From: Chloroflexota bacterium
Lineage (GTDB): Bacteria; Chloroflexota; Dehalococcoidia; JACVQG01
Assembly (NCBI GenBank): GCA_016210545.1
Contig: JACQTY010000248.1
Span: 1 to 36,047, forward strand
Direction of reading: 5' to 3'
Length of the DNA stretch: 36,047 nucleotides
The notes under the pieces are model-generated. The model did not search any database. It was not told the origin of the DNA and saw only the letters and a list, made by a program, of their open reading frames with translations. Below are positions 1 to 19,289 of this stretch, one piece after another. Position 1 is the first letter of the stretch, and each line of letters begins with the position of its first letter. The position numbers were made by a program, and so were the translations under genes.

Positions 1-25
1 GTCTTTCATACCTCACCCCCTTTGT

Positions 26-155
26 CCCCCTCTCCGATTTCAGAGAGGGGGAGATTGACCTAACCCTGAATCCCTTCCCTATACGGGAAGGGACTTGGTA
101 CGGGCACGGCACGCCGTGCCCCTACGAAACTTCCCCTTCCCACTCTGGGAAGGGG
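26..155. repeat. Cluster of four GC-rich hairpin repeats after the cas operon
   Basis: Four inverted repeats stand in a row: arms 26-34/43-51, 72-79/85-92, 102-109/114-121 and 133-141/147-155. The last ends one base before the cas6e stop codon. The same families recur near 9870, 28180 and 28330, so these are dispersed REP-like elements. The last hairpin could also help end cas transcription, but no T-run follows it on the minus strand. There is no gene here and no CRISPR repeat. Confidence 0.75.
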
Positions 156-1154
156 TTAGGTCTTACCTCCCGCTTCGCACATCTCACCTCTCAACGGCGC
201 CACCGAGAGCAGCCCGAAGCCAAACGCCTTGCCGGGGCCGATGCCACTGATGATGGCCCGACGGAATAGCCCGGCATCGGTGACTGTGAGAACGCCTTTG
301 TAACGGACGAGGCGTCTGCGGCCAGTGTCCTCCTTTGCCTCGGTCTTCTTTGCCTTCTCTGGTTCGGGCTTGCGCCAAAACATGTAACCCGGTTGGATGA
401 TGGGATGTCCCTCGACGCGGAAGCCGTGACGCTTCCCCTTACGGATGAGCCAATCTTCAAGCTTATCATTTTGGACAGGTACTCGCTGGCCCCCGTGCTT
501 CTGCTTATTGTTATTGGCAATTTCATCTTTGCGGACTGCGCGGGCCTGCTCCACCGCGACTAGAACTGTAGCATGGTCTAGGTCTGGAGCGGCAAGGAGC
601 ATGTTAGCCGTGAGGTCGCGTTCACGGTTTGATAGCTTTAGCTCGAGCTGTTTGATAGCAGCGCGGCACTCCGAATAGGAGCGCCTGTGACGCTCCACGG
701 AAGGCTTGTTGCCGTCGCCACCCACCTCGGCGCCGGTCTTGCATGCCGAATTGGCCGCGAGGCGGAATCTCAGTGCCTGCCCCGCCGCGAAGGCGGGGTC
801 AAAGGCCTTCACCTGTGGGTCGCACGCCAGCAGATAGCCCGCATTCTGGAAAGCATAGTCCCAGTCGGGCTTGATGGCAGATTGTACCAGAATCACCGGG
901 CTGCCGCCGGGCACGGGATCGATGCGAAACAGGAAGCCATTGTCGCTTCCTCGCTCAATGTGGACTTGCTTTGCGCCAAAGTCCTCCGGTTTGAAAGGCT
1001 GTAGGAAGTCCTTGTCGGCTGCTACCCTGGAAGCCGATGGAAACGCCATGCACAACCGCTGGTGAACATGGTAGAGGTTGCGCAGCCAGAGACGGCCGGG
1101 CCGCGGCCGGTCGGGATTGCTTCCCACATTTATAAGGAGATACGATATGTACAT
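156..1154 (-). CDS. cas6e: Cas6e (CasE/Cse3), type I-E crRNA endoribonuclease
   Basis: Cas6e cuts the CRISPR precursor RNA within each repeat and stays bound to the 3-prime hairpin of the crRNA in Cascade. His31 in YHVHQRL matches the catalytic His of the family (E. coli His20). The C-terminal glycine-rich loop GIGPGKAFGFGLL (about 306-318) is the family signature. At 332 residues it is much longer than the usual 200-250. The extra length includes a charged, probably helical stretch at about 150-215 and a Lys/Glu-rich loop at about 265-285. The start lies 2 bases after the cas5e stop, with an AGGAGGTGG ribosome site inside the end of cas5e. It is last in the operon; no cas1 or cas2 follows before the window edge. 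Confidence 0.93.
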   Translation of the reverse strand: MYISYLLINVGSNPDRPRPGRLWLRNLYHVHQRLCMAFPSASRVAADKDFLQPFKPEDFGAKQVHIERGSDNGFLFRIDPVPGGSPVILVQSAIKPDWDYAFQNAGYLLACDPQVKAFDPAFAAGQALRFRLAANSACKTGAEVGGDGNKPSVERHRRSYSECRAAIKQLELKLSNRERDLTANMLLAAPDLDHATVLVAVEQARAVRKDEIANNNKQKHGGQRVPVQNDKLEDWLIRKGKRHGFRVEGHPIIQPGYMFWRKPEPEKAKKTEAKEDTGRRRLVRYKGVLTVTDAGLFRRAIISGIGPGKAFGFGLLSVAPLRGEMCEAGGKT

Positions 1155-1156
1155 GT

Positions 1157-2275
1157 CTATTCCACCTCCTCCGGGCTGAGACGCCGGCGGCGGGTCTCCA
1201 GGGAGCGGAAGTCAATGATCTCTTTACGTTTCTTGATAATCTCGTCTCGCCAACGGGGTTCCTCGGGGTTGATGCGGTCCAGGCCCATGCCCAGGCCGTA
1301 CTCGATCATGGTTACGGCGTCGTGGCATAGCCGACACAGCGAACGGAGGTCATCCATGGTCTCGCCGCCGCCGGCGCGGCGGTAGGTGATGTGCTGGACG
1401 GTCCGGGTGTGGGGAGTAAGGGGAGCCTTACAGAAAACACACAGATGTTGGTCATGCTGCCACCGCTCTGCCTGGCGTTGTTTGTAAACAGAATCTTCAT
1501 ACGCTGCTTGGGGCCGCGGTGCAGGCGGTGTGTGTTGCTGCGTAGGGCTGTCCACGTGAACCTTCAGAGATGTGCGGACAATCAGCCGTGGCCAATGTAC
1601 AGACGGGTCAAAGGAGATCGGAACGTCGTACCAAACCTCGGCATCCGATGGAGCTATGGCGTCGTCAGAGGGCGCTTGCCATTCGATAAGGCAGGGCAGT
1701 TCCCCCGGCGGCGAGACACCGTCAACCTCTACTAGGCGGGGTTGCCAGGGAATGTATTGCAGGGCCTCCTTCAATCCTGGAAAGTTGCCCTGCCCGGCCA
1801 TGATGGGCACGGACGGGACACAGGACTTGCGGCCCAGGAAGGGCGGCCATTTTGGATCCTCCAAAGCCGTCTTTACATGCTGAATAGTCTCAGACTGGCC
1901 ACGTAAAGCCACCAGGAAGCTGGCATCGCAGAGATACTCGCGACGGCTAACCAGAGTCTCAATTGTTTTGGTGGTGCCTGTTATCTTGATCCCGCCTTCG
2001 GCCTTCAGCAGACCATAGCCGGCGCCAACGGTGTGATAGTCCCACCAGCGCGCGCCCGGTCGGTCAATGCGGACCCCCATTGCCAGCTTGTTCAAGTCTT
2101 TAAGGTGTTGCCGCGCGTCCAGGCGTCGTACGCCCATTGCCGCGCATATCAGGCCGAGTATACCGGACTTGGTCGGGGCCTCCATGGTGCGCCGGATGAC
2201 GAACTTGGAGGTGTCACCCCAGGCCTGAAGGGGGCCTTCTAGGCGGAGAAACAGAGTGTTGGCTGTGCCGGCCAT
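1157..2275 (-). CDS. cas5e-HNH: Cas5e fused to a C-terminal HNH nuclease domain
   Basis: Residues 1 to about 240 are Cas5e, the Cascade subunit that caps the crRNA 5-prime handle. Visible signs are the N-terminal LFLRLEGPLQAWG, the APTKSGILGLICAAMG region and the YLCDASFLVAL strand. A Pro-rich linker (about 243-258) leads to an HNH domain at about 262-330. It has zinc-knuckle cysteines C279/C282 and C314/C317, the first HNH histidine H295 (VQHITY), an acidic residue D309 where many HNH domains have Asn, and the last His H318 (LCRLCH). A basic helical tail ends at residue 372. Normal Cas5e is about 220-250 residues and has no nuclease. HNH-fused Cas5 in type I-E loci without Cas3 has been reported from metagenome mining; the inference is that this Cascade cuts its DNA target itself. 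Fusion is in one continuous frame, 2 bases after the cas7e stop. Confidence 0.93.
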   Translation of the reverse strand: MAGTANTLFLRLEGPLQAWGDTSKFVIRRTMEAPTKSGILGLICAAMGVRRLDARQHLKDLNKLAMGVRIDRPGARWWDYHTVGAGYGLLKAEGGIKITGTTKTIETLVSRREYLCDASFLVALRGQSETIQHVKTALEDPKWPPFLGRKSCVPSVPIMAGQGNFPGLKEALQYIPWQPRLVEVDGVSPPGELPCLIEWQAPSDDAIAPSDAEVWYDVPISFDPSVHWPRLIVRTSLKVHVDSPTQQHTPPAPRPQAAYEDSVYKQRQAERWQHDQHLCVFCKAPLTPHTRTVQHITYRRAGGGETMDDLRSLCRLCHDAVTMIEYGLGMGLDRINPEEPRWRDEIIKKRKEIIDFRSLETRRRRLSPEEVE

Positions 2276-2277
2276 GA

Positions 2278-3984
2278 TCAGGCTCCTTCCGGAGCCTTAC
2301 CAGCGTCCTTGACCTGCGACCATTCGAAGCCGATTTCCTTTACCATTGCTTCCACCAACCCCGCGGGGTTGCCGTCTTCGCCGACAAGGGTTTTGTAAAC
2401 TCCTGTGGTCAAATCCATGTGATTCTTCTTCGTGCCGTCTGGCTCGCGTTCCCAACCTTGCAAAGGATGGCGCCATAGCTGTGGGCTGAACCACAGCAAC
2501 GTGGATTTCACGCCAAAGGCATTGCGCAGAGAATGGACGTAATCCCCGAACTGTGCGATGCTCCGGCCTACCAGGCTGACGCTGTCGGCAGCGTCATCGG
2601 GCGGGTCGCCAATCTTGCGGGCTGGATCAGCAAACGCATTGGCATAGCTAACGGGTATCTTTCCGCTCTTCTTGATTTCGACCAGGATTCCCTCTGGTAA
2701 AGTGGGCGAGGCAAGGCCGTTCTGCTTTCCGCTGGGGGTAGTTTGCGCCGCAGCACGAAGGAAGTGGCCCACTGTGCAAGCCGCGAGGCGTTCTGCCTGC
2801 GGCTTCACCTCGTTTTCCCATTTCTTGGTGACTTCAGGGTCATTTTCCCTGTCCGGTTGCGGCCCGGCAAGGTTGTTCACAAGTTGGTCCCAGTCCAGGC
2901 AGAAGTACTTGTAAAAGCATGCCGAGTTGAACATGGCCTCATCCACATGCCCCGCCCCGCCGCCGGTCCTGCCCAGGTCATCCACCGCCGTGAAGTAGTC
3001 CACCTCATTAACCACGGCGTGGGTTGAAATGGCATGCGCCACCTGCATGGCGGCTTCTACATCCTGGAATGCATCGGACGTTGTCATCCGGCCAAAGAGA
3101 GCGATATCTACTGCGTCACAGCGATTAGCTGATCTTAGAGCCTCCTGAAACGTGTCCCACTCCTTTTTCCCTGGTTTGGGGGGCGCATCGTCCTTGAGCA
3201 CGCCCTTTTCCTCCTTAGCAGGACCTTTGATCAATTCTTTGAACCGGGCGGGGTCGGCCACACGAAGTGAAAGAAGGCGCTCAGCAATCAGTAAAGCGTG
3301 TGGGTATCCAGGTTGGTTATCCTCCATCTCCGGCTCCCCCGGGGGCTCCTCCCCTTCAGCAGGTTTGAGCAGTTCACGCATGCGGCATTTCGCAATGACC
3401 CAACTAACGTTGACCAGCCTATCTTGCTCCTTATCATCATCCAGGCCCGACTCAGAAAGATGCTCTCGAACCATTTCCTGGAACCCTACGACCGGGTTGA
3501 GAAAGTACTTATAGCAATCTTGTTGCTGTTCACGTAACTCACCCAGTTTTTGAACGAAAAACCTAGCGTGGCCTGGCCCCAGATGGATCAACTGTGCGGT
3601 CTTTGGTCGCTCATCTACCTTCGCCGCCCGTGGTGCCTTCGTGTCTTCCTTCTCTTTGCTGACGGCTATGCGCTGCGCCCTCAGGACGATTCGCCGATGC
3701 TCATCTGAAGGGATTTGTGATTTCAGCAACTCCTGCTGCACCAACCAGGGAAAGAACTTAGTCTTGGTTCCAATATGCCCAGACATTGCCTCATAGAACA
3801 TTCCTGGCCCTTTACTGTGCACGTCCTCCGGGTTGCCGGGGTTGCGGATGCTGCGCTTGAGACACTGGCTGGAAATGCGGGCGCGGGTAACGCCGCCGAA
3901 AAGGCAGGTCTTGGGCGCCCCCAGGTCGTCCCGGTTCAGGTTGGCCGGGCTGTGGTTCTGGATGATATGGATTTCAACAAGCAT
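2278..3984 (-). CDS. cas7e: Cas7e (CasC/Cse4), Cascade backbone subunit with large insertion
   Basis: Cas7e polymerises along the crRNA spacer to form the Cascade backbone. Family signatures are the N-terminal VEIHIIQNHSPANLNRDD, GGVTRARISSQCLKRSIR (about 31-47), DIALFGRM (about 293-300), the AHAIST...EVDYFTAVDDL stretch (318-337) and FNSACFYKY (352-360). At 568 residues it is far longer than typical Cas7e (about 350-390). The conserved FGRM block begins near residue 297, much later than usual, so roughly 150-170 extra residues lie between about 60 and 285. That segment is charged and partly Pro/Glu-rich. The ATG follows a GGGAGG ribosome site 5 bases upstream, 11 bases after the cse2 stop. 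Adjacent to the HNH-fused Cas5, so the insertion may relate to placement of the nuclease (inference). Confidence 0.93.
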   Translation of the reverse strand: MLVEIHIIQNHSPANLNRDDLGAPKTCLFGGVTRARISSQCLKRSIRNPGNPEDVHSKGPGMFYEAMSGHIGTKTKFFPWLVQQELLKSQIPSDEHRRIVLRAQRIAVSKEKEDTKAPRAAKVDERPKTAQLIHLGPGHARFFVQKLGELREQQQDCYKYFLNPVVGFQEMVREHLSESGLDDDKEQDRLVNVSWVIAKCRMRELLKPAEGEEPPGEPEMEDNQPGYPHALLIAERLLSLRVADPARFKELIKGPAKEEKGVLKDDAPPKPGKKEWDTFQEALRSANRCDAVDIALFGRMTTSDAFQDVEAAMQVAHAISTHAVVNEVDYFTAVDDLGRTGGGAGHVDEAMFNSACFYKYFCLDWDQLVNNLAGPQPDRENDPEVTKKWENEVKPQAERLAACTVGHFLRAAAQTTPSGKQNGLASPTLPEGILVEIKKSGKIPVSYANAFADPARKIGDPPDDAADSVSLVGRSIAQFGDYVHSLRNAFGVKSTLLWFSPQLWRHPLQGWEREPDGTKKNHMDLTTGVYKTLVGEDGNPAGLVEAMVKEIGFEWSQVKDAGKAPEGA

Positions 3985-3995
3985 GATTGCCTCCC

Positions 3996-4529
3996 TTATA
4001 AAACTTTAACGGCTTTCAGGTACTCCTCGGCCCAGATGTCGCGGACATCCCGCTTTAGCCGGTGCTCGTCCGCGCGATCCCAGATGGACAGGTCATCGAG
4101 GAGTTGCGCCCAGTCCAGGCCGGGACATCGCTTTCTCTCCACGGTGGCGGCCACCACATGCAGCGCCCAATGCAAGTGGGGTTCCAGGCCCGGCAACGCA
4201 GCTTGCAGCAAGGCATCGAACCGTCCACGATAGCGCTTTTGATCTTGTTCAACGGTCGGTTCGTTGGCACCCAGGACGGACGGCAGGTATCCACTATCAC
4301 CGGTAACAACGGGTATCGGGAACGCCCCGAACAGTTGGGCGATGAGCCAGCTTGTCTCCCGCCGGGGGGCGGCCTGGTTTCTCTGCCGTAGGGGCCACCA
4401 CACGCCCGTGAACAGGTCAAACCCGGCCAGAGACTTATCTGGGGGCTGGCCCGCCAGTCTACGGAGTCGCGACCTTTCCCCCTCGTTGAGTGATTGTAGC
4501 TGGTGTATGAACGCCGCTGCCTGACTCAA
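3996..4529 (-). CDS. cse2: Cse2 (CasB, Cas11e), Cascade small subunit
   Basis: Cse2 forms the dimeric belly of type I-E Cascade and helps hold the non-target DNA strand in the R-loop. This 177-residue, helix-rich protein has the family length (about 160-200). Typical features are the N-terminal FIHQLQSLNEGERSRLRRLAG, the LFTGVWWPL segment near 40, and the C-terminal LLDDLSIWDRADEH followed by RDIWAEEYL. The start appears to be TTG at 4529, overlapping the cas8e TGA, with GAGAGGCG upstream; this implies translational coupling to cas8e. No insertion is seen, unlike Cas7e and Cas6e. Confidence 0.9.
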   Translation of the reverse strand: MSQAAAFIHQLQSLNEGERSRLRRLAGQPPDKSLAGFDLFTGVWWPLRQRNQAAPRRETSWLIAQLFGAFPIPVVTGDSGYLPSVLGANEPTVEQDQKRYRGRFDALLQAALPGLEPHLHWALHVVAATVERKRCPGLDWAQLLDDLSIWDRADEHRLKRDVRDIWAEEYLKAVKVL

Positions 4530-6097
4530 GCCGCGCCTCTCTTTCGCGCCGCCCCTTTGGGTTTCTGAACGGCGCGCGGGATAGGTTGCAAATTGGTGGC
4601 ATTCGCTGGCCGTTCCATCGCCCGGTGCAATGCCCTGAGTGCCTTTTGAGTGGCCTCCCGCTGGCGCAGGGGCGATCCCGCCGCTACCATAGAAGACACG
4701 TCGTTGAGCACTGCTCTAACCGCATCGCGAACTCCATGCCGCCAGCCCTCCACGCGGCGGTCAACTTCCTCTCTGGAGACCGCTACTGTTATCTCGTCCA
4801 AGAATCTTCGGAACTGGGTGCGAAGTGTCGCTTCAATCTCGGCATCAACCATTGCCAGAGCAGATTTCACCTCAGGGCGGCCTTGTGCTTGTCGGGGGAT
4901 GGCCTGGACGATGTAGTACCTCAGGTTCATGTCGTCGAGACCATCGATTTCTGCAAGCGCCAGATCCCGGAGAACAACGTCCTCAAGGAGACGGTAGGCA
5001 ATCTTCCAAGTGTCCCCATGTTCGTCAAACGTCTTTGCCTGCTTGGTAAGGGGCTCATAGCACGTCACCGACAATTCCGTCCCGTATGAAAGGCGTTGCC
5101 CAGCGACGCGAATCGCCGGCACGGGTCCATCGCCGCTCGCTGATTGTAGCATGGCACGAGCGAGTTCTCGCCAAAATGCTGCCTCATACGACGGATAGCG
5201 CACGGGATCCGGCCCACGGAGCAGGTTATCTTTGTTACCCACCTTGTCGGCATTAGAAGCGGCCTTTGTGGGACGCTGGGCGGTAAGTGGATCACGCCAC
5301 GCACGACGGTCACCACTTCGGCTGCGCCCCCCCTTGAACACGAGCTTTGACACAAGAGGCCCTTGTGCTCCACAGCGGGAACACCTCCTATCACCAATTT
5401 GGATTAGCGGCCCCAGCCAGACAGCACGTGGTTGCCAGGTAAACCCTTCGAGTATACCTATGCTCTGTTGCGCTTGTTTGCCCATATCCCACGATGGGTA
5501 GTCGTCGTCCAACTCTTGCGACGGCCAATTGAGCAAGAGGGTTTCCATCAACGTATTGCCGCGGGGGAGAAAATAGGCGGGTGGTGCGTTGTTGATAGAG
5601 GGGGATTTCCCTTGGCCGCCTTGCGTTGCACATGCTGAGAGGCGAACCAGTCCAAGAGCACAGCAGGCGCGGCATAGGCCAACCGTACGGTCGTAAACGT
5701 GTTGAAAGTGGTTGATCTCGGTAGCGGCAGGCAAGTAAGCGAACAGATCGGATGCAGGGCGTTCCGCATTCTTATCAGCTTCATCTGAAGACTGATAGAA
5801 CCTTTTTCCCCCGCCCAACAGGTTGAAGCAATCCCTGTTGTCGTAGAGCTTGGAGAACCAGTCTTCGGGGAACGAGTCAGCGGGTGCGGGGGCTGCGTCA
5901 GTTGTTGGATTCCCCTTGCACCAATACAACACCGCCAGCAAAAAACGCATAATGGCCACGCGGTCCATGGGGTTGCTGGCTGCAATCTGCCGGATGCGAC
6001 CCGCCTGCGTAAGCGCGTTTTTGATGCCCACGCGGCATGCCGTTCCATTGGTATAGAGGACGGGAATCCAGGGTTCGTCAAGGAGATTGTACGTCAT
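4526..6097 (-). CDS. cas8e: Cas8e (CasA/Cse1), Cascade large subunit
   Basis: Cas8e recognises the PAM and starts target unwinding. In standard type I-E it also recruits Cas3. The N-terminal YNLLDEPWIPVLY is the classic CasA start. Two CxxC pairs, C142/C145 and C239/C242, match the zinc site of the family. The C-terminal third is a helix-rich bundle rich in Arg and Glu, ending in a basic tail. Start at 6097 is preferred over an ATG 33 bases upstream because GGGAGGTGG lies 6-8 bases before it and the protein then begins with the family motif. Length is 523 residues, normal for Cas8e. It is the first gene of the operon; the usual cas3 gene is not upstream, so the Cas3-docking role may be lost here (inference). 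Confidence 0.92.
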   Translation of the reverse strand: MTYNLLDEPWIPVLYTNGTACRVGIKNALTQAGRIRQIAASNPMDRVAIMRFLLAVLYWCKGNPTTDAAPAPADSFPEDWFSKLYDNRDCFNLLGGGKRFYQSSDEADKNAERPASDLFAYLPAATEINHFQHVYDRTVGLCRACCALGLVRLSACATQGGQGKSPSINNAPPAYFLPRGNTLMETLLLNWPSQELDDDYPSWDMGKQAQQSIGILEGFTWQPRAVWLGPLIQIGDRRCSRCGAQGPLVSKLVFKGGRSRSGDRRAWRDPLTAQRPTKAASNADKVGNKDNLLRGPDPVRYPSYEAAFWRELARAMLQSASGDGPVPAIRVAGQRLSYGTELSVTCYEPLTKQAKTFDEHGDTWKIAYRLLEDVVLRDLALAEIDGLDDMNLRYYIVQAIPRQAQGRPEVKSALAMVDAEIEATLRTQFRRFLDEITVAVSREEVDRRVEGWRHGVRDAVRAVLNDVSSMVAAGSPLRQREATQKALRALHRAMERPANATNLQPIPRAVQKPKGAARKRGAA

Positions 6098-6155
6098 GGG
6101 CTTCCACCTCCCGGGCGGAGTGGAGGTCAAGCAAGTGGCTCCGCTTGATGGAACG

Positions 6156-12383: not shown

Positions 12384-13658
12384 ATGTTTGGGTTCTTGAG
12401 GTCCCGATTTGTCGGGAGGCACTGGGTGAAGGATAGGCTCTCCCTTTACCTCGACGGGCGCCTTGTCCCCGAAGAGAAAGCAAAGGTGGAGTCCCATTTG
12501 AAAGCCTGCGCGGCCTGCCGAGAGGAACTGGAGTCGCTACGGGCAACTGTAAACGCCCTGCGACAACTGCCCCTGGTGGCCCCGCCCCGTCCGTTTGTCC
12601 TGCCTGCCGAAGGCTCCCGGCTTGCCGGAGCAGTCAGACCCGCTTTGCGCCCCGTCGCCTTTTATCGCTTGAGGCTGGCGACGGCGGTAGTGGCGGCGCT
12701 CCTGGTGGCGCTCGTTTCGTGGGACAGCGTGGGGCGGTTCATGGGGCCGGTTGGTCAGGAGCCTTCCAGAGGACCAGCGCCGGCGGCGTCGCCACAGGCC
12801 CTGCAACAAGCGTCCGCGCCGACCCCTGGCCCGGCAGCGGCGCCCGCTGCCCAGGCGCCTGTGGCGACGCCGCCTCCTCTCTCATCGCCTACACCGGCGC
12901 CGAAGACCGGGCCATCCCCCGCACCAATGATGGCGCCCGCGGCTGCCCCCGTACCCAGGCCAGCGCCACTAGCGACTCCGTCGCCAACGCCTGATGAAAC
13001 GCAACCCAGGATAATGAAGGCGGCCCCCAGCGGCCCCGCGGCAGCCACTGCACAGGAAGCAGGCGGGCCGGTACCCCCGGCAGATGCAGAAGCATCAGCG
13101 CAGGCGATGGAACAGTCCCGACAGGTCGGGACGCCGCAACCGTCGCCGGCGACGGCCCCGGCGGTGGGCGTGGCCCCGGTCCCAGCGCAGCCGGTCGCAC
13201 CCCGGTCTCTCCAGGCACAGCCATTGCCGCCGCCGCCGCCCTCGATGCCACTGGCCCCACCCGCACGGGATGGTGCATCCGGGCCGGTCGAAGATACCGC
13301 ACGCCGGACGGGTCCGGCAGGGCCCGGAGCGGCCCCCGGCAAGGGAGGCGCTGCCGGGGTGGCGAGCGTTGCGCCCACTCCATCCCCGACGCCTCGGTCA
13401 GCGCAGGAGGAGCTAAAGGTTGCCCCGTCCGCTGAGCCTTCGGCCGGCGCGATGGACGCGGTCCAAGCCGCGCCCCAGTCCCCACCCGTCGGGACATCCG
13501 AGGCGCTGCCTCAGGCCCCGGCCCAACCTCCGTACAGCCTCGGACTGGGCGTCAGAGAGGCGGAGATCGCGCTGGGGGCGCTGCTTGCGTTCCTGGGCGC
13601 GGCCACGATCTATGCCTGGCGGCGGGCCAGAAGACAGGTTAGAAGGAAGGAAAGATGA
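12384..13658 (+). CDS. Membrane-bound zinc-finger anti-sigma factor with long Pro/Ala-rich outer domain
   Basis: A 424-residue protein. The N-terminal ZAS/zf-HC2 domain has the HxxxCxxC site at H38, C42 and C45 and should hold the ECF sigma factor in the cytoplasm. A membrane helix follows at about 97-113. Then comes about 270 residues of low-complexity Pro/Ala/Ser/Thr-rich sequence, probably outside the cell. A second hydrophobic segment (about 393-411) with a basic tail (RRARRQVRRKER) ends the protein. The family model is release of sigma when the outer part senses stress; the trigger here is unknown. A CCCGAC/GTCGGG dispersed repeat is embedded in frame at 13116-13131. The stop overlaps the next start (ATGA). 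Confidence 0.82.
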   Translation: MFGFLRSRFVGRHWVKDRLSLYLDGRLVPEEKAKVESHLKACAACREELESLRATVNALRQLPLVAPPRPFVLPAEGSRLAGAVRPALRPVAFYRLRLATAVVAALLVALVSWDSVGRFMGPVGQEPSRGPAPAASPQALQQASAPTPGPAAAPAAQAPVATPPPLSSPTPAPKTGPSPAPMMAPAAAPVPRPAPLATPSPTPDETQPRIMKAAPSGPAAATAQEAGGPVPPADAEASAQAMEQSRQVGTPQPSPATAPAVGVAPVPAQPVAPRSLQAQPLPPPPPSMPLAPPARDGASGPVEDTARRTGPAGPGAAPGKGGAAGVASVAPTPSPTPRSAQEELKVAPSAEPSAGAMDAVQAAPQSPPVGTSEALPQAPAQPPYSLGLGVREAEIALGALLAFLGAATIYAWRRARRQVRRKER

Positions 13659-14530
13659 AGATGAATAAGAAATGGCTCATGGTGGTTGGTCCGCTATTGG
13701 CTTTGGCCCTTGCGGCAGGCGCCTGCGTGAATGCCCCGGCGGCGGCGCCCGCGCCCGGCCCGGCTAACGGTCCGGTGGCCGCGTCCCAGTTCATAGTCCC
13801 GCCGGTGTCCTCGCAGCAGACCGGCCTGTGGGTGAACGGCGAGGGCAAGGCCACCTTTGTCCCGGATATAGCTGTGTTGACGCTGGGCATCGAGTCCCAG
13901 GACCAGACGGTCGCCGCGGCCCAGAACAAGGCCCGGGACGCTATGAACCGGATACTGGCCGCCCTGAAGGCCAAGAACGTCGCCGATAAGGACATCCGCA
14001 CCACGTCGTTCAATATCCAGGCGGTCAGGCAGTGGCTGGAGCCTCTGCCCGTCCCTTCCGTCCCCCGAGGAAAGCCTGAATCCACACCGGGCGGATTTGC
14101 CGAACCTGGCTTCAAGCCGGCGCCCAAAGAGGTTATTGTCGGCTACCGGGTCAGCAATACGGTTTCGGTGAAGATACGGAAGATCGACGAGGCGGGCCAG
14201 ATCATCGATGCTGTATCAGAGGCGGGCGGCGACCTGACGCGGGTCAACGGCATCGGCTTCACGATGGACGATTTCACGCCTCTGCGCACCCAGGCCAGGG
14301 AGAAAGCGGTGAAGGACGCCGTAGCCAAAGGCAAGCAGATGGCTGAAGCTGCCGGAATCGGTCTGGGCAAGACCATCTACATAAACGAGAGCGGCGGCTT
14401 TGTCCCCCAGACTGTCCAGTTCAGGAGCTTCGGGGTGGCAGCGGCCGCGCCGTCGGCTGCGCCGACTCCCATAAGCGCCGGAGAGCAGGAGTTGAACGTC
14501 TCGGTGCAGATGGTGTTCGAGATAAAGTAG
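13655..14530 (+). CDS. SIMPL-domain (DUF541) lipoprotein, copy 1
   Basis: A 291-residue exported protein. The N-terminus has a basic start, a hydrophobic core and AGAC before Cys24, a plausible lipobox although Ala replaces the usual Leu at -3. The mature part has a Pro/Ala linker and a SIMPL domain from GLWVNGEGKATFVPDIAVLTLGIES to the C-terminal LNVSVQMVFEIK. SIMPL proteins are periplasmic or surface proteins of unclear action, often linked to envelope or oxidative stress. Start overlaps the anti-sigma stop, so they are co-translated. A close paralogue follows. Confidence 0.85.
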   Translation: MKMNKKWLMVVGPLLALALAAGACVNAPAAAPAPGPANGPVAASQFIVPPVSSQQTGLWVNGEGKATFVPDIAVLTLGIESQDQTVAAAQNKARDAMNRILAALKAKNVADKDIRTTSFNIQAVRQWLEPLPVPSVPRGKPESTPGGFAEPGFKPAPKEVIVGYRVSNTVSVKIRKIDEAGQIIDAVSEAGGDLTRVNGIGFTMDDFTPLRTQAREKAVKDAVAKGKQMAEAAGIGLGKTIYINESGGFVPQTVQFRSFGVAAAAPSAAPTPISAGEQELNVSVQMVFEIK

Positions 14531-14840: not shown

Positions 14841-15659
14841 ATGAACAGGAAATGGCTCATGGCGGTTGCTCCGTTGCTGGCCCTGGCCTTGCTGGCAGGC
14901 GCCTGCGTCAACGCCCCGGCGTCAACGCCCGCGCCCGGCCCGGCTAACGGTCCGGTGGCCGCGTCCCAGTTCATAGTCCCGCCGGTATCCTCGCAGCAGA
15001 CGACCGGCCTGTGGGTGAACGGCGAGGGCAAGGTCACCTTCACGCCCGATATTGCCGTGCTTAGCCTGGGGATAGAGTCGCAGGAGAAGACGGTGGCCCT
15101 GGCGCAGGGCAAGGCGCGGGACGCTATGAATCGGGTGCTGGCGGCACTGAAGGACAAGAACGTGGCCGATAAAGACATCCGTACCCAGATCTTCAGCATC
15201 CACCCGGTGACACAGTATATCCAGCCTCAACAGTTTCCGGTTCCGCAACCCGGCAGGGAGGTGATCATCGGCTACCGTGTCAGCAACACCGTTGTCGTTA
15301 AGATACGGAAGATAGCAGATGCCGGCCAGGTGATCGACGCGGTAAGCGAGGCCGGCGGCGACCTGACCAGGGTGAACAACATCGGCTTCACCATGGACGA
15401 TTTCACGCCGCTGCGCAACCAGGCCAGGGAGAAGGCAGTGAAGGACGGCGTGGACAGGGCCAAGCAGATCGCTGCGGCGGCGGGAATCACCCTGGGCAAG
15501 CCGACGTACATAAATGAGAGCGGGGGCTTCTTCCCCCAGGACTTCGCGGCCAAGAGCTTCGCGACGGAGGCAGCGGGAGGCGGCTTTGCACCGACGCCCG
15601 TCAGCCCCGGAGAGCAGGAGCTTAGCGTATCGGTCCAGATGGTCTTCGACATGAAGTAG
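14841..15659 (+). CDS. SIMPL-domain (DUF541) lipoprotein, copy 2
   Basis: A 272-residue tandem paralogue of the preceding SIMPL protein. The signal region and the first 35 mature residues are nearly the same (for example the PAPGPANGPVAASQFIVPP segment), while the middle (HPVTQYIQPQQ) differs. A lipobox-like LAGAC precedes Cys22. The C-terminal SIMPL block (VSNTVVVKIRKIADAGQVID, NIGFTMDDFTPLR, LSVSVQMVFDMK) is well kept. The ATG has AGGAAGTAGGAG upstream. The strong N-terminal match at the DNA level suggests a recent duplication or gene conversion. Confidence 0.85.
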   Translation: MNRKWLMAVAPLLALALLAGACVNAPASTPAPGPANGPVAASQFIVPPVSSQQTTGLWVNGEGKVTFTPDIAVLSLGIESQEKTVALAQGKARDAMNRVLAALKDKNVADKDIRTQIFSIHPVTQYIQPQQFPVPQPGREVIIGYRVSNTVVVKIRKIADAGQVIDAVSEAGGDLTRVNNIGFTMDDFTPLRNQAREKAVKDGVDRAKQIAAAAGITLGKPTYINESGGFFPQDFAAKSFATEAAGGGFAPTPVSPGEQELSVSVQMVFDMK

Positions 15660-16559: not shown

Positions 16560-17522
16560 TTGGTCAAGAAACTGGTGCAGAAGAGCCTCCTGGAGGCTAT
16601 AGGCAACACCCCCCTGGTCAGACTCAACAGACTTGGCCAGGGCGCCGGCGAGATATGGGTCAAGCTGGAGTTCCTTAACCCCGGCGGCAGTATCAAGGAC
16701 AGAAGCGCTCTGGCTATTGTGCGGGAGGCCGAGGCCCGGGGCAAGCTTGGCCCGGGGGCGACCATCGTTGAGGCCACCGCCGGTAACATGGGTATTTCCC
16801 TGGCCATGGTGGCCGCTGCCAGAGGGTATCGGGCGGTCCTGGTAATCCCGGAGAACGTTGCCGCAGAGCAGCGCTACAGGCTGTTGCGTCTGGGGGCGGA
16901 AGTGGTATTGTCTCCGGCTCGCGAAGGCATGGCCGGGGCGATGGCCATGGTAGAAGACATGGAGCGCAAGAACCCGGCCTACTTTGTGGCTCGCCAGTTC
17001 GAGAATCCGGCGAGCTGCGAGGCCCACCGGCGGACGACAGCCGCGGAGATCCTCAAAGACACCGGCGGCAGAGTGGATGCCTTTGTAGCCGGCATAGGCA
17101 CCGGCAGCACCGTCACGGGGGTTGGCCAGGCATTGAAGGAGAAGGTGGCGGGCGTACGCATAATCGGCGTGGAGCCGGCGGCGTCCCCCTTGATCAGCCA
17201 GGGAAGGTCCGGTCCCCACACCATACCGGGGATAGGCGCCAACTTCATACCGCCCCTGCTGGACCGCCGGGTCCTGGACGAGGTGATCGCTGTATCCGAT
17301 GCTGCGGCCCAGGAAACGGTGCTGAGGCTGTCCCGGGAAGAGGGGATATGCGCCGGCCTGTCCGGCGGGGCTAATGTCTGGGCATGCATGAAGGTGGCCG
17401 AGACCCTGGGAGGCCGCAAGGTGGTCGTCACTGTCTTGCCCGATGGGGGCGATCGCTACTGGAATCAGCTCCTGAGCAGTGAGGGCGCCACCGAAACTTC
17501 GGGCAACTCGAGAGGAGTTTGA
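16560..17522 (+). CDS. PLP-dependent cysteine synthase family protein (CysK/CBS-like)
   Basis: A 320-residue fold-type II PLP enzyme. The Schiff-base lysine is K46 in NPGGSIKDRSA. The substrate loop, usually TSGNTG, reads TAGNMG (73-78). The PLP-phosphate loop is GIGTGST (178-184). It probably replaces the hydroxyl-leaving group of an activated serine with sulfide or a thiol. The altered loop makes O-acetylserine use uncertain; a beta-synthase acting on homocysteine or another donor is possible. The TTG start is preceded by GCGAGG. The stop is 4 bases before the E1-like gene, so it is in one operon with it. Confidence 0.82.
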   Translation: MVKKLVQKSLLEAIGNTPLVRLNRLGQGAGEIWVKLEFLNPGGSIKDRSALAIVREAEARGKLGPGATIVEATAGNMGISLAMVAAARGYRAVLVIPENVAAEQRYRLLRLGAEVVLSPAREGMAGAMAMVEDMERKNPAYFVARQFENPASCEAHRRTTAAEILKDTGGRVDAFVAGIGTGSTVTGVGQALKEKVAGVRIIGVEPAASPLISQGRSGPHTIPGIGANFIPPLLDRRVLDEVIAVSDAAAQETVLRLSREEGICAGLSGGANVWACMKVAETLGGRKVVVTVLPDGGDRYWNQLLSSEGATETSGNSRGV

Positions 17523-17526
17523 TTTT

Positions 17527-18357
17527 ATGGCTGTGACCCTGTCTGAGACGCAAATAGAACGCTACAGCCGGCACATCCTGCTGAAGCAGGTCGGGGGCAA
17601 GGGACAGAAGAAGATACTGGAGTCCAGCGTTCTGCTGGTCGGGGCCGGGGGACTGGGCTCTCCGGCAGCCCTTTATCTGGCCGCGGCCGGCGTGGGCAAG
17701 CTGGGCATCGTCGACTTCGACAAGGTGGACTTATCCAATCTCCAGCGTCAGCCCTTGCACCATACCCCGGACGTGGGCAAGCCCAAGGTCGTCTCGGCCG
17801 CCGAGACCATCGCCAGCCTCAACCCCGACGTCCAGGTGGTGCCGTATACGGCCAAGCTCACCTCAGAGAACATTATGGGTGTCATAGCTGGATATGACGT
17901 GATCGTGGACGGGAGCGATAACTTCCCCACCCGCTACCTGGTGAACGATGCCTGTGTCTTCGCCGGGAAACCCCTCGTGCATGGCAGCATCTTCCTCTTC
18001 GAGGGACAGGCCACGGTATTCCAGCCGGGGAAAGGGTGCTATCGCTGCCTCTATCCCACGCCGCCCCCGCCCGGCGCCGTTCCCTCCTGCCAGGAAGTGG
18101 GGGTGATCGGCGTGTTGCCGGGCGTCGTGGGGCTTATCCAGGCCACGGAAGCCATCAAGCTGGTCCTGGGGATCGGCACTAGCCTGGCCGGCTACCTGCT
18201 GGTCTACGATGCCCTGGACATGGAGTTCCATAAGGTCAAGCTACGCCGCAATGCCGCCTGCCCGGTGTGCGGCGACCACCCCACGGTTACCAAACTCATT
18301 GATTATGAGCAGTTCTGCGGGGTGGCGGTCACCGCCGACCATGGGAGTCACGCATGA
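17527..18357 (+). CDS. ThiF/MoeB/HesA-family E1-like adenylyltransferase
   Basis: A 276-residue enzyme that adenylates the C-terminal Gly-Gly of a small sulfur carrier (ThiS, MoaD or CysO type) so it can be thiocarboxylated. ATP-binding GAGGLGSP lies at 39-46, followed by IVDFDKVDLSNLQRQ with the expected acidic and Arg residues. VDGSDNFPTRYLVNDAC is the family block. Zinc cysteines are C171/C174 and C245/C248. ATG at 17527 follows AGGAG. It sits between two cysteine synthases and overlaps cysM by ATGA, so its carrier likely feeds CysM. It has no C-terminal rhodanese domain; the separate rhodanese and TusA downstream may supply sulfur. Confidence 0.88.
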   Translation: MAVTLSETQIERYSRHILLKQVGGKGQKKILESSVLLVGAGGLGSPAALYLAAAGVGKLGIVDFDKVDLSNLQRQPLHHTPDVGKPKVVSAAETIASLNPDVQVVPYTAKLTSENIMGVIAGYDVIVDGSDNFPTRYLVNDACVFAGKPLVHGSIFLFEGQATVFQPGKGCYRCLYPTPPPPGAVPSCQEVGVIGVLPGVVGLIQATEAIKLVLGIGTSLAGYLLVYDALDMEFHKVKLRRNAACPVCGDHPTVTKLIDYEQFCGVAVTADHGSHA

Positions 18358-19289
18358 AGTTCAAGGACATCCTTGACGCTGTCGGCCATACCCCCCTGGT
18401 GGAGGTCGCCCGGCTCAGCCCCAAGCCGCAGGTGCATATCTATACCAAGCTGGAGGGGAATAATCCTAGCGGCAGTGTCAAAGACCGTATCGCCAAGTAC
18501 ATGATCTTGAAGGCCGAGGAAGAGGGCAAGCTGACCCCGGATAGGACCATCCTGGAGCCTACCAGCGGCAATACGGGGATATCGCTGGCCATGATCGGGC
18601 GAAGGCGCGGCCACAAGGTCAAGGTGGTTATGCCGGAGAATGTCAGCTCGGAACGCCGGGAGTTGCTGGAGCTGTACGGGGCTGAGATCGTGTATTCCGA
18701 TGGCAGCCAGGGGACTAACGGGGCCATAGAGGTGGCGCAAAAGATGGCCGCTGAGGACCACCGTTACTTCATGCCCTACCAGTACGGCAACGAGGCCAAT
18801 CCGCGCGCCCACTATGAGACGACCGCGCAGGAGATCATCGATGACCTGCCCGATGTCGACGTATTCGTGGCCGGGCTGGGCACCGGCGGGACCCTGATGG
18901 GCGTGGGGCGGCGGCTCAAGGAACACAATTCTAAGGTGAAGGTTATCGCCACGGTCCCCCACCCCGGAGACCTGATATTTGGCCTCAGGAGCCTGGAGGA
19001 GGGCTTCATTCCGCCGATCCTGGACCTGGCGCTGCTCGACGGACGACTGCTCATAGATTCCTGCGACTCCTTTATGGGAACGAGGGATCTCGCTGAGAAG
19101 GAAGGTATCTTCGCCGGCGTGTCCTCGGGCGCCGCCATCCGCTGCGCCCAGCGGGTGGCCCAGCGCATGGACAAGGGCAACGTCGTGGTGCTACTGGCCG
19201 ACGGCGGTTGGAAGTACCTGAGCACGCACCTGTGGACAAGGCCGTGCGAGGGTCTGGACCAGGCTGTGCAGGGCAAGATCTGGTGGTAG
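18354..19289 (+). CDS. cysM: CysM-type cysteine synthase (likely O-phosphoserine/thiocarboxylate dependent)
   Basis: A 311-residue fold-type II PLP enzyme with Schiff-base K43 (NPSGSVKDR), substrate loop TSGNTG (70-75) and a GLGTGGT phosphate loop. The region FGLRSLEEGFIPPI and the C-terminus DGGWKYLST...GKIWW look like mycobacterial CysM, which uses O-phosphoserine and the thiocarboxylated carrier CysO. The Arg in FGLR may bind the phosphate. The start overlaps the E1-like gene stop (ATGA), which supports the carrier-dependent route. Substrate is inferred from similarity and context. Confidence 0.85.
   Translation: MKFKDILDAVGHTPLVEVARLSPKPQVHIYTKLEGNNPSGSVKDRIAKYMILKAEEEGKLTPDRTILEPTSGNTGISLAMIGRRRGHKVKVVMPENVSSERRELLELYGAEIVYSDGSQGTNGAIEVAQKMAAEDHRYFMPYQYGNEANPRAHYETTAQEIIDDLPDVDVFVAGLGTGGTLMGVGRRLKEHNSKVKVIATVPHPGDLIFGLRSLEEGFIPPILDLALLDGRLLIDSCDSFMGTRDLAEKEGIFAGVSSGAAIRCAQRVAQRMDKGNVVVLLADGGWKYLSTHLWTRPCEGLDQAVQGKIWW

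Follow-up and report, generated by a model that had tools for sequence, protein, structure and literature searches.

An HNH-bearing type I-E Cascade from a Chloroflexota bacterium: a member of the I-E2 class in a subclade with enlarged Cas7e

Does a type I-E operon whose Cas5e subunit runs on into an HNH domain encode a Cascade that cuts DNA by itself, and is it a new kind of system or a further member of a known one? Such an operon lies at one end of a 36,047-nucleotide stretch of DNA (the window) from a Chloroflexota bacterium (contig JACQTY010000248.1, assembly GCA_016210545.1). An earlier reading made from the letters alone (the sequence-only reading) had assigned it to a class, already reported, in which HNH fused to Cas5 cuts DNA independently of Cas3. 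The literature bears out the existence of this class (PMC10910872, PMC11822464, PMC12669027). The Cas5–HNH system was discovered, and its cleavage of double-stranded DNA demonstrated, by Altae-Tran et al. 2023 (PMC10910872); the Cloacimonetes homologue cuts double-stranded DNA without Cas3, and inactivation of its HNH abolishes activity (PMC10910872). Several cryo-EM structures are available (PDB 8yb6, 8yha, 8zlu, 8zp7 and 9jxs), the HNH lies between Cas6 and Cas11 in Cas5–HNH Cascade structures (PMC11822464), and the 2025 classification gives the class the name I-E2 (PMC12669027). Because the class has been found, its cutting shown, its structures solved and its name formally given, we count the locus as a new addition to an established kind. 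Cas5–HNH Cascades, which cut DNA precisely and need no Cas3, attract interest as editing tools, and only one of them, from Cloacimonetes, has been well studied so far. Our analysis supports the assignment of the locus as a previously undescribed I-E2 member, distant from the one studied and belonging to a subclade in which a backbone subunit is half as large again.

Cas5e and HNH share one intact frame

The sequence-only reading had described one frame that joins a complete Cas5e through a Pro-rich linker to an HNH domain, with C279, C282, H295, D309, C314, C317 and H318 as its key residues. The minus-strand open reading frame (ORF) is intact, both parts match their family profiles, and all seven residues are found at those positions (Table 1). 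In family scans, residues 7-224 matched TIGR01868 (E 4.5e-48) and Pfam Cas5 (E 6.2e-40), and residues 279-321 matched PF01844 (HNH) with an E value of 2.8e-5, which passes the curated cut-off. A sequence search aligned the fusion end to end with the solved Cas5–HNH chains (8yb6, 8yha, 8zlu, 8zp7 and 9jxs; E about 1e-105, with 5.5e-105 for 8yb6 and others), and a fold search with the Cas5–HNH model returned the same chains as top matches (E 1e-33 to 6.5e-39). When the AlphaFold monomer was compared with the known chains, the domains agreed and the angle between them differed (TM 0.56, rmsd 12-15); given this difference from the complex, the monomer model speaks neither for nor against the placement of the HNH here. 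The full-length match to a solved Cas5–HNH chain, together with 51 relatives that have the full architecture, confirms that the fusion is genuine and far beyond chance.

Table 1 Features of the Cas5–HNH Cascade operon in the window
Feature	Position	Strand	Description
cas8e/cse1	4526..6130	-	534 aa counted from TTG
cas11/cse2	3996..4529	-	177 aa, TTG start, 4-nt overlap with cas8e stop
cas7e	2278..3984	-	568 aa, enlarged backbone subunit
Cas7e insert region	3121..3579	-	residues 136-288, predicted mostly helical
cas5e-HNH	1157..2275	-	372 aa, ATG start, no internal stops
Cas5e part of fusion	residues ~4-226		Cas5e family profiles
Pro-rich linker of fusion	residues ~243-262		SPTQQHTPPAPRPQAAYEDS
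HNH part of fusion	residues ~275-360		Zn Cys 279/282/314/317, H295, H318
cas6e	156..1154	-	332 aa, crRNA endonuclease

A complete type I-E2 effector operon

The rest of Cascade (cas8e, cse2, cas7e and cas6e) is intact and in order, as the sequence-only reading had it: the four partner ORFs are open and family-matched, and the operon runs cas8e–cas11–cas7e–cas5e-HNH–cas6e with all five genes open. Family scans assigned each subunit to type I-E, with Cas11 just below the NCBIfam cut-off (26.5 vs 28.5 bits) and above that of Pfam. Translation of cas8e likely starts at the ATG at residue 12 (MTYNLLDEPW...) rather than at the listed TTG. By its motif, H31 of Cas6e is presumably the counterpart of the E. 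coli catalytic histidine, and it is kept. For all four partner subunits, the best PDB match is the same Cas5–HNH complex that the fusion matches; with the full gene set and the HNH residues, these matches uphold the proposal that the locus is a new member of the class. No cas3, cas1 or cas2 was recognised within the window, and the operon is preceded upstream by genes for a beta-helix protein and a DsbH-type thioredoxin protein.

The closest characterised system, that of Candidatus Cloacimonetes (Altae-Tran 2023, PMC10910872; Zhang 2024 Mol Cell), shares the gene set, the Cas5e–linker–HNH layout, the HNH residues and the absence of cas3. It differs in that the two Cas5–HNH proteins are only ~50% identical and fall on separate branches of the family tree, that Cas7e and Cas6e are longer in the window (568 vs 378 aa and 332 vs 272 aa), and that cas1-cas2 are not seen in the window's genome. 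The Cas8–HNH Cascade of type I-F4 (Selenomonas sp.) also has a built-in HNH in place of Cas3, but there the domain sits in Cas8f on a type I-F backbone and is of independent origin (PMC10910872, PMC12669027). Canonical type I-E systems (E. coli, Thermus and the control locus L053) have the same five Cascade subunits from the same families, whereas they have no HNH and cut by means of Cas3. They are recognised by a cas3 with the Cascade operon and a Cas5e without HNH, and the window shows neither feature.

HNH is conserved across 51 related loci

The sequence-only reading had proposed a search for Cas5–HNH homologues and a tree. A single scan of public genome contigs yielded 51 loci with the full Cas5–HNH architecture, spread over many phyla, plus one canonical Cas5e locus (L053), and trees were built. 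Loss of key HNH residues in all relatives had been named as evidence that would count against the earlier proposal; instead, the zinc cysteines and both histidines (C279, C282, H295, C314, C317 and H318) are invariant in every HNH relative that covers those positions. As judged by dN/dS values of ~0.06-0.21 for the HNH part in close relative pairs, the domain is under purifying selection in the relatives and is thus maintained. When Cas5 domains were placed in a tree along with 20 canonical Cas5e proteins, the HNH fusions lay on one side of one branch with weak support (31/85), which is compatible with a single origin of the fusions.

Two relatives are noted for their sequence context. In L103 (genome G156, contig C123, 42-1147), of the same class, Cas5 and HNH lie in two overlapping frames with the shift in the linker, which may be a real frameshift or a sequencing error; overlap of its contig with that of L104 gives a whole locus with cas1-cas2. 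Another relative (L107, IMGVR_UViG_3300005916_000376) is borne on a contig listed as viral.

Cas3 in the genome and in the relatives

The genome that contains the window (3.34 Mb) is 93.8% complete, and neither the window nor this assembled part holds a Cas3 above cut-off, the remaining few percent being unseen. Three weak matches to the Cas3 core proved to be Mfd, RecG and an MrfA-type helicase. A full Cas3 was likewise found in none of the 51 relative loci, whereas the canonical control L053 does show one. In two relatives, N-terminal Cas3 stubs (~66-73 aa matched) stand directly upstream of cas8e (L032:6493-6705 and L019:6584-6802) and are likely relics of the replacement of Cas3.

We surveyed Cas3 in 45 genomes, comprising 44 HNH hosts and L053. 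It scored above cut-off in 14 (13 HNH hosts and the control) and in none of the other 31. Cas3 could therefore act in trans in those 13 hosts. In a Synergistaceae genome (MAG3, JAESII010000004.1; L008 and L099), a canonical I-E operon (cas8, cas7, cas5, cas6, cas1 and cas2, with a Cas3 match nearby) precedes a 96-repeat array, and a Cas5–HNH Cascade (L008) whose own cas1 is in fragments comes immediately after the array. This HNH-Cascade may draw crRNAs from the neighbouring canonical array; its close relative L009 has cas1-cas2 intact. Intermediates of these kinds among the 51 relatives (Cas3 stubs, loss of adaptation genes, an HNH-Cascade in tandem with a canonical system) open the order in which Cas3 was replaced to direct study.

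CRISPR array and adaptation genes

A pattern search located the genome's own array on a separate contig (C122), where seven identical repeats (ATTGTCCCCACGCACGTGGGGGTGAACCG) with 32-nt spacers run up to the contig end; operon and array are on different contigs, and their linkage is not seen in the assembly. The same repeat occurs in HNH loci L002 and L004 and in the class relative G156, where it is the array repeat of the joined L103–L104 locus. The array is oriented as expected if it followed the operon downstream; cas1-cas2 would then either fall within the gap or have been lost. The window's contig ends 155 nt past cas6e in repeat-rich sequence that does not contain a cas1 start, so the direct surroundings of the array are unseen. 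In most relatives cas1 begins <= ~100 nt after cas6e (exceptions: L034 at 202 and L002 at 693); although common there, the adaptation genes are not taken here as a defining feature of I-E2. Cas1 and Cas2e had no match in the 93.8% complete genome; spacer acquisition has therefore possibly been lost, or the genes lie within an assembly gap. In L021 (after 8800), cas1 is missing and only a cas2 remnant stands between cas6e and the array, while the effector genes and the array are kept.

The six complete spacers had no exact matches in viral contigs. Spacer 6 partly matched the cas6e of L021 and L036 (18/19 nt); this was discarded, as over the full 32 nt only 19-21 positions match, a chance level. 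Shortly past the last I-E repeat on C122, a short sequence (CGGGTGCGTGGATTGAAAC; L093:13791-13809) looks like the terminal part of a different type of CRISPR repeat, and one near copy of it occurs elsewhere in the genome (C228).

Proposed mechanism and alternative explanations

With the gene order, the open frames, an HNH that is conserved and under purifying selection, no Cas3 detected and a matching array, we consider it very probable that the locus is a type I-E2 effector operon whose HNH cuts both DNA strands independently of Cas3. The array transcript would be cut by Cas6e at the 29-nt repeats, and Cas8e, Cas11, several Cas7e, Cas5e–HNH and Cas6e would assemble on a crRNA with a 32-nt spacer. 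Target recognition would lead to a full R-loop and then to HNH cutting. The HNH, carried on Cas5 between Cas11 and Cas6, would lie near the PAM-distal end and cut both strands there, so that Cas3 would not be needed. We infer the assembly of the complex, the placement of the HNH, the cut positions and the independence from Cas3 from the characterised homologue.

Among the alternatives, we give most weight to decay, which we nevertheless think unlikely: the operon could be a decaying or array-poor remnant, its effector genes still open, its adaptation lost and its array frozen, that confers little or no immunity now. Such a history would suit the failure to find Cas1 and Cas2e in the genome, the lack of a cas1 in the 155 nt that follow cas6e, and the decay of cas1/cas2 in two relatives (L021 and L008). 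Yet none of the five effector genes is interrupted, their key residues are conserved, the seven repeats are identical, and cas1-cas2 may be merely unassembled, given that the contig ends past cas6e.

It is far less probable that a Cas3 supplied in trans does most of the cutting, with the HNH in an accessory role such as that of a nickase or collateral ssDNase. The 13 Cas5–HNH genomes with a Cas3 elsewhere and the canonical I-E system that adjoins the HNH-Cascade of L008 lend this idea some plausibility, but no Cas3 passes the cut-off in the genome that contains the window, and the homologue, which cuts double-stranded DNA without Cas3, is inactive once its HNH is inactivated (PMC10910872). Finally, a draft assembly of 263 contigs with the locus at a contig end raises the question of whether a sequencing or assembly artefact joined cas5e to an unrelated HNH gene. 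The chance of this is negligible: the identical architecture recurs in 51 further loci across many phyla and in solved structures, and its conservation in independent assemblies refutes the artefact.

Enlarged Cas7e and Cas6e

As anticipated by the sequence-only reading, the Cas3-independent Cascade proposed here has large Cas7e and Cas6e subunits: 568 and 332 aa vs medians of ~398 and ~260 among the relatives, medians that include some over-long ORF starts. Cas7e measures 568-591 aa in the window, L006, L012 and L017 and about 370-440 in other relatives. In a tree built from those columns of Cas5, Cas7, Cas11 and Cas6 that most members share, the window forms one clade with L006, L017, L012 and L046 (SH-aLRT 100), with L021 as its sister; the Cas7 of L046 is cut short near a contig start, so its length cannot be scored. 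On this tree, the enlargement of Cas7e is the mark of a subclade and not unique to the window. The gain in the subclade's intact sampled proteins over the more usual ~380 aa comes mostly from a helical insert. The long-Cas7e loci from Armatimonadota (L006 and L017) and Desulfomonile (L012) have the same Cas7e inserts as the window, but in them cas1-cas2 directly follow cas6e and the window's extra Cas6e insert is missing. This second insert, of roughly 60 aa around residues 150-215, was absent from all 11 relatives compared.

The Cas7e stretches missing in most relatives (residues 136-185, 191-199, 213-220 and 237-288) together add ~120 residues and lie in a region of 153. A structure model renders them as helices, with good confidence between ~141 and 280; confidence is low near residues 14-74, 115-133 and 289-355, and we therefore draw from the model no more than the helical nature of the insert. 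The insert had no PDB relative by sequence, no Pfam family except Cas7 itself, and no occurrence in any other of 400 sampled genomes from the same phylum. Repeated on each of the several Cas7 copies in a complex, the insert would make the backbone considerably more massive along its length. We put forward tentatively, as a doubtful proposition, that members of the long-Cas7e subclade differ in function from other HNH-Cascades: a mostly helical insert on each Cas7 might build an extra layer along the complex that alters HNH cutting or release, or the docking of a partner. The subclade is a natural experiment on the contribution of the Cas7 backbone.

Other features of the window

Outside the operon, the window contains tandem duplicated SIMPL (DUF541) genes (13655-14527 and 14841-15656) whose DNA is ~80% identical; the pair adjoins an anti-sigma-like zinc-finger gene and a sigma-factor-like frame. 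Two further ORFs (16560-17522 and 18354-19289) contain related stretches, ~72% identical over 83 nt, which suggests a paralogous gene pair.
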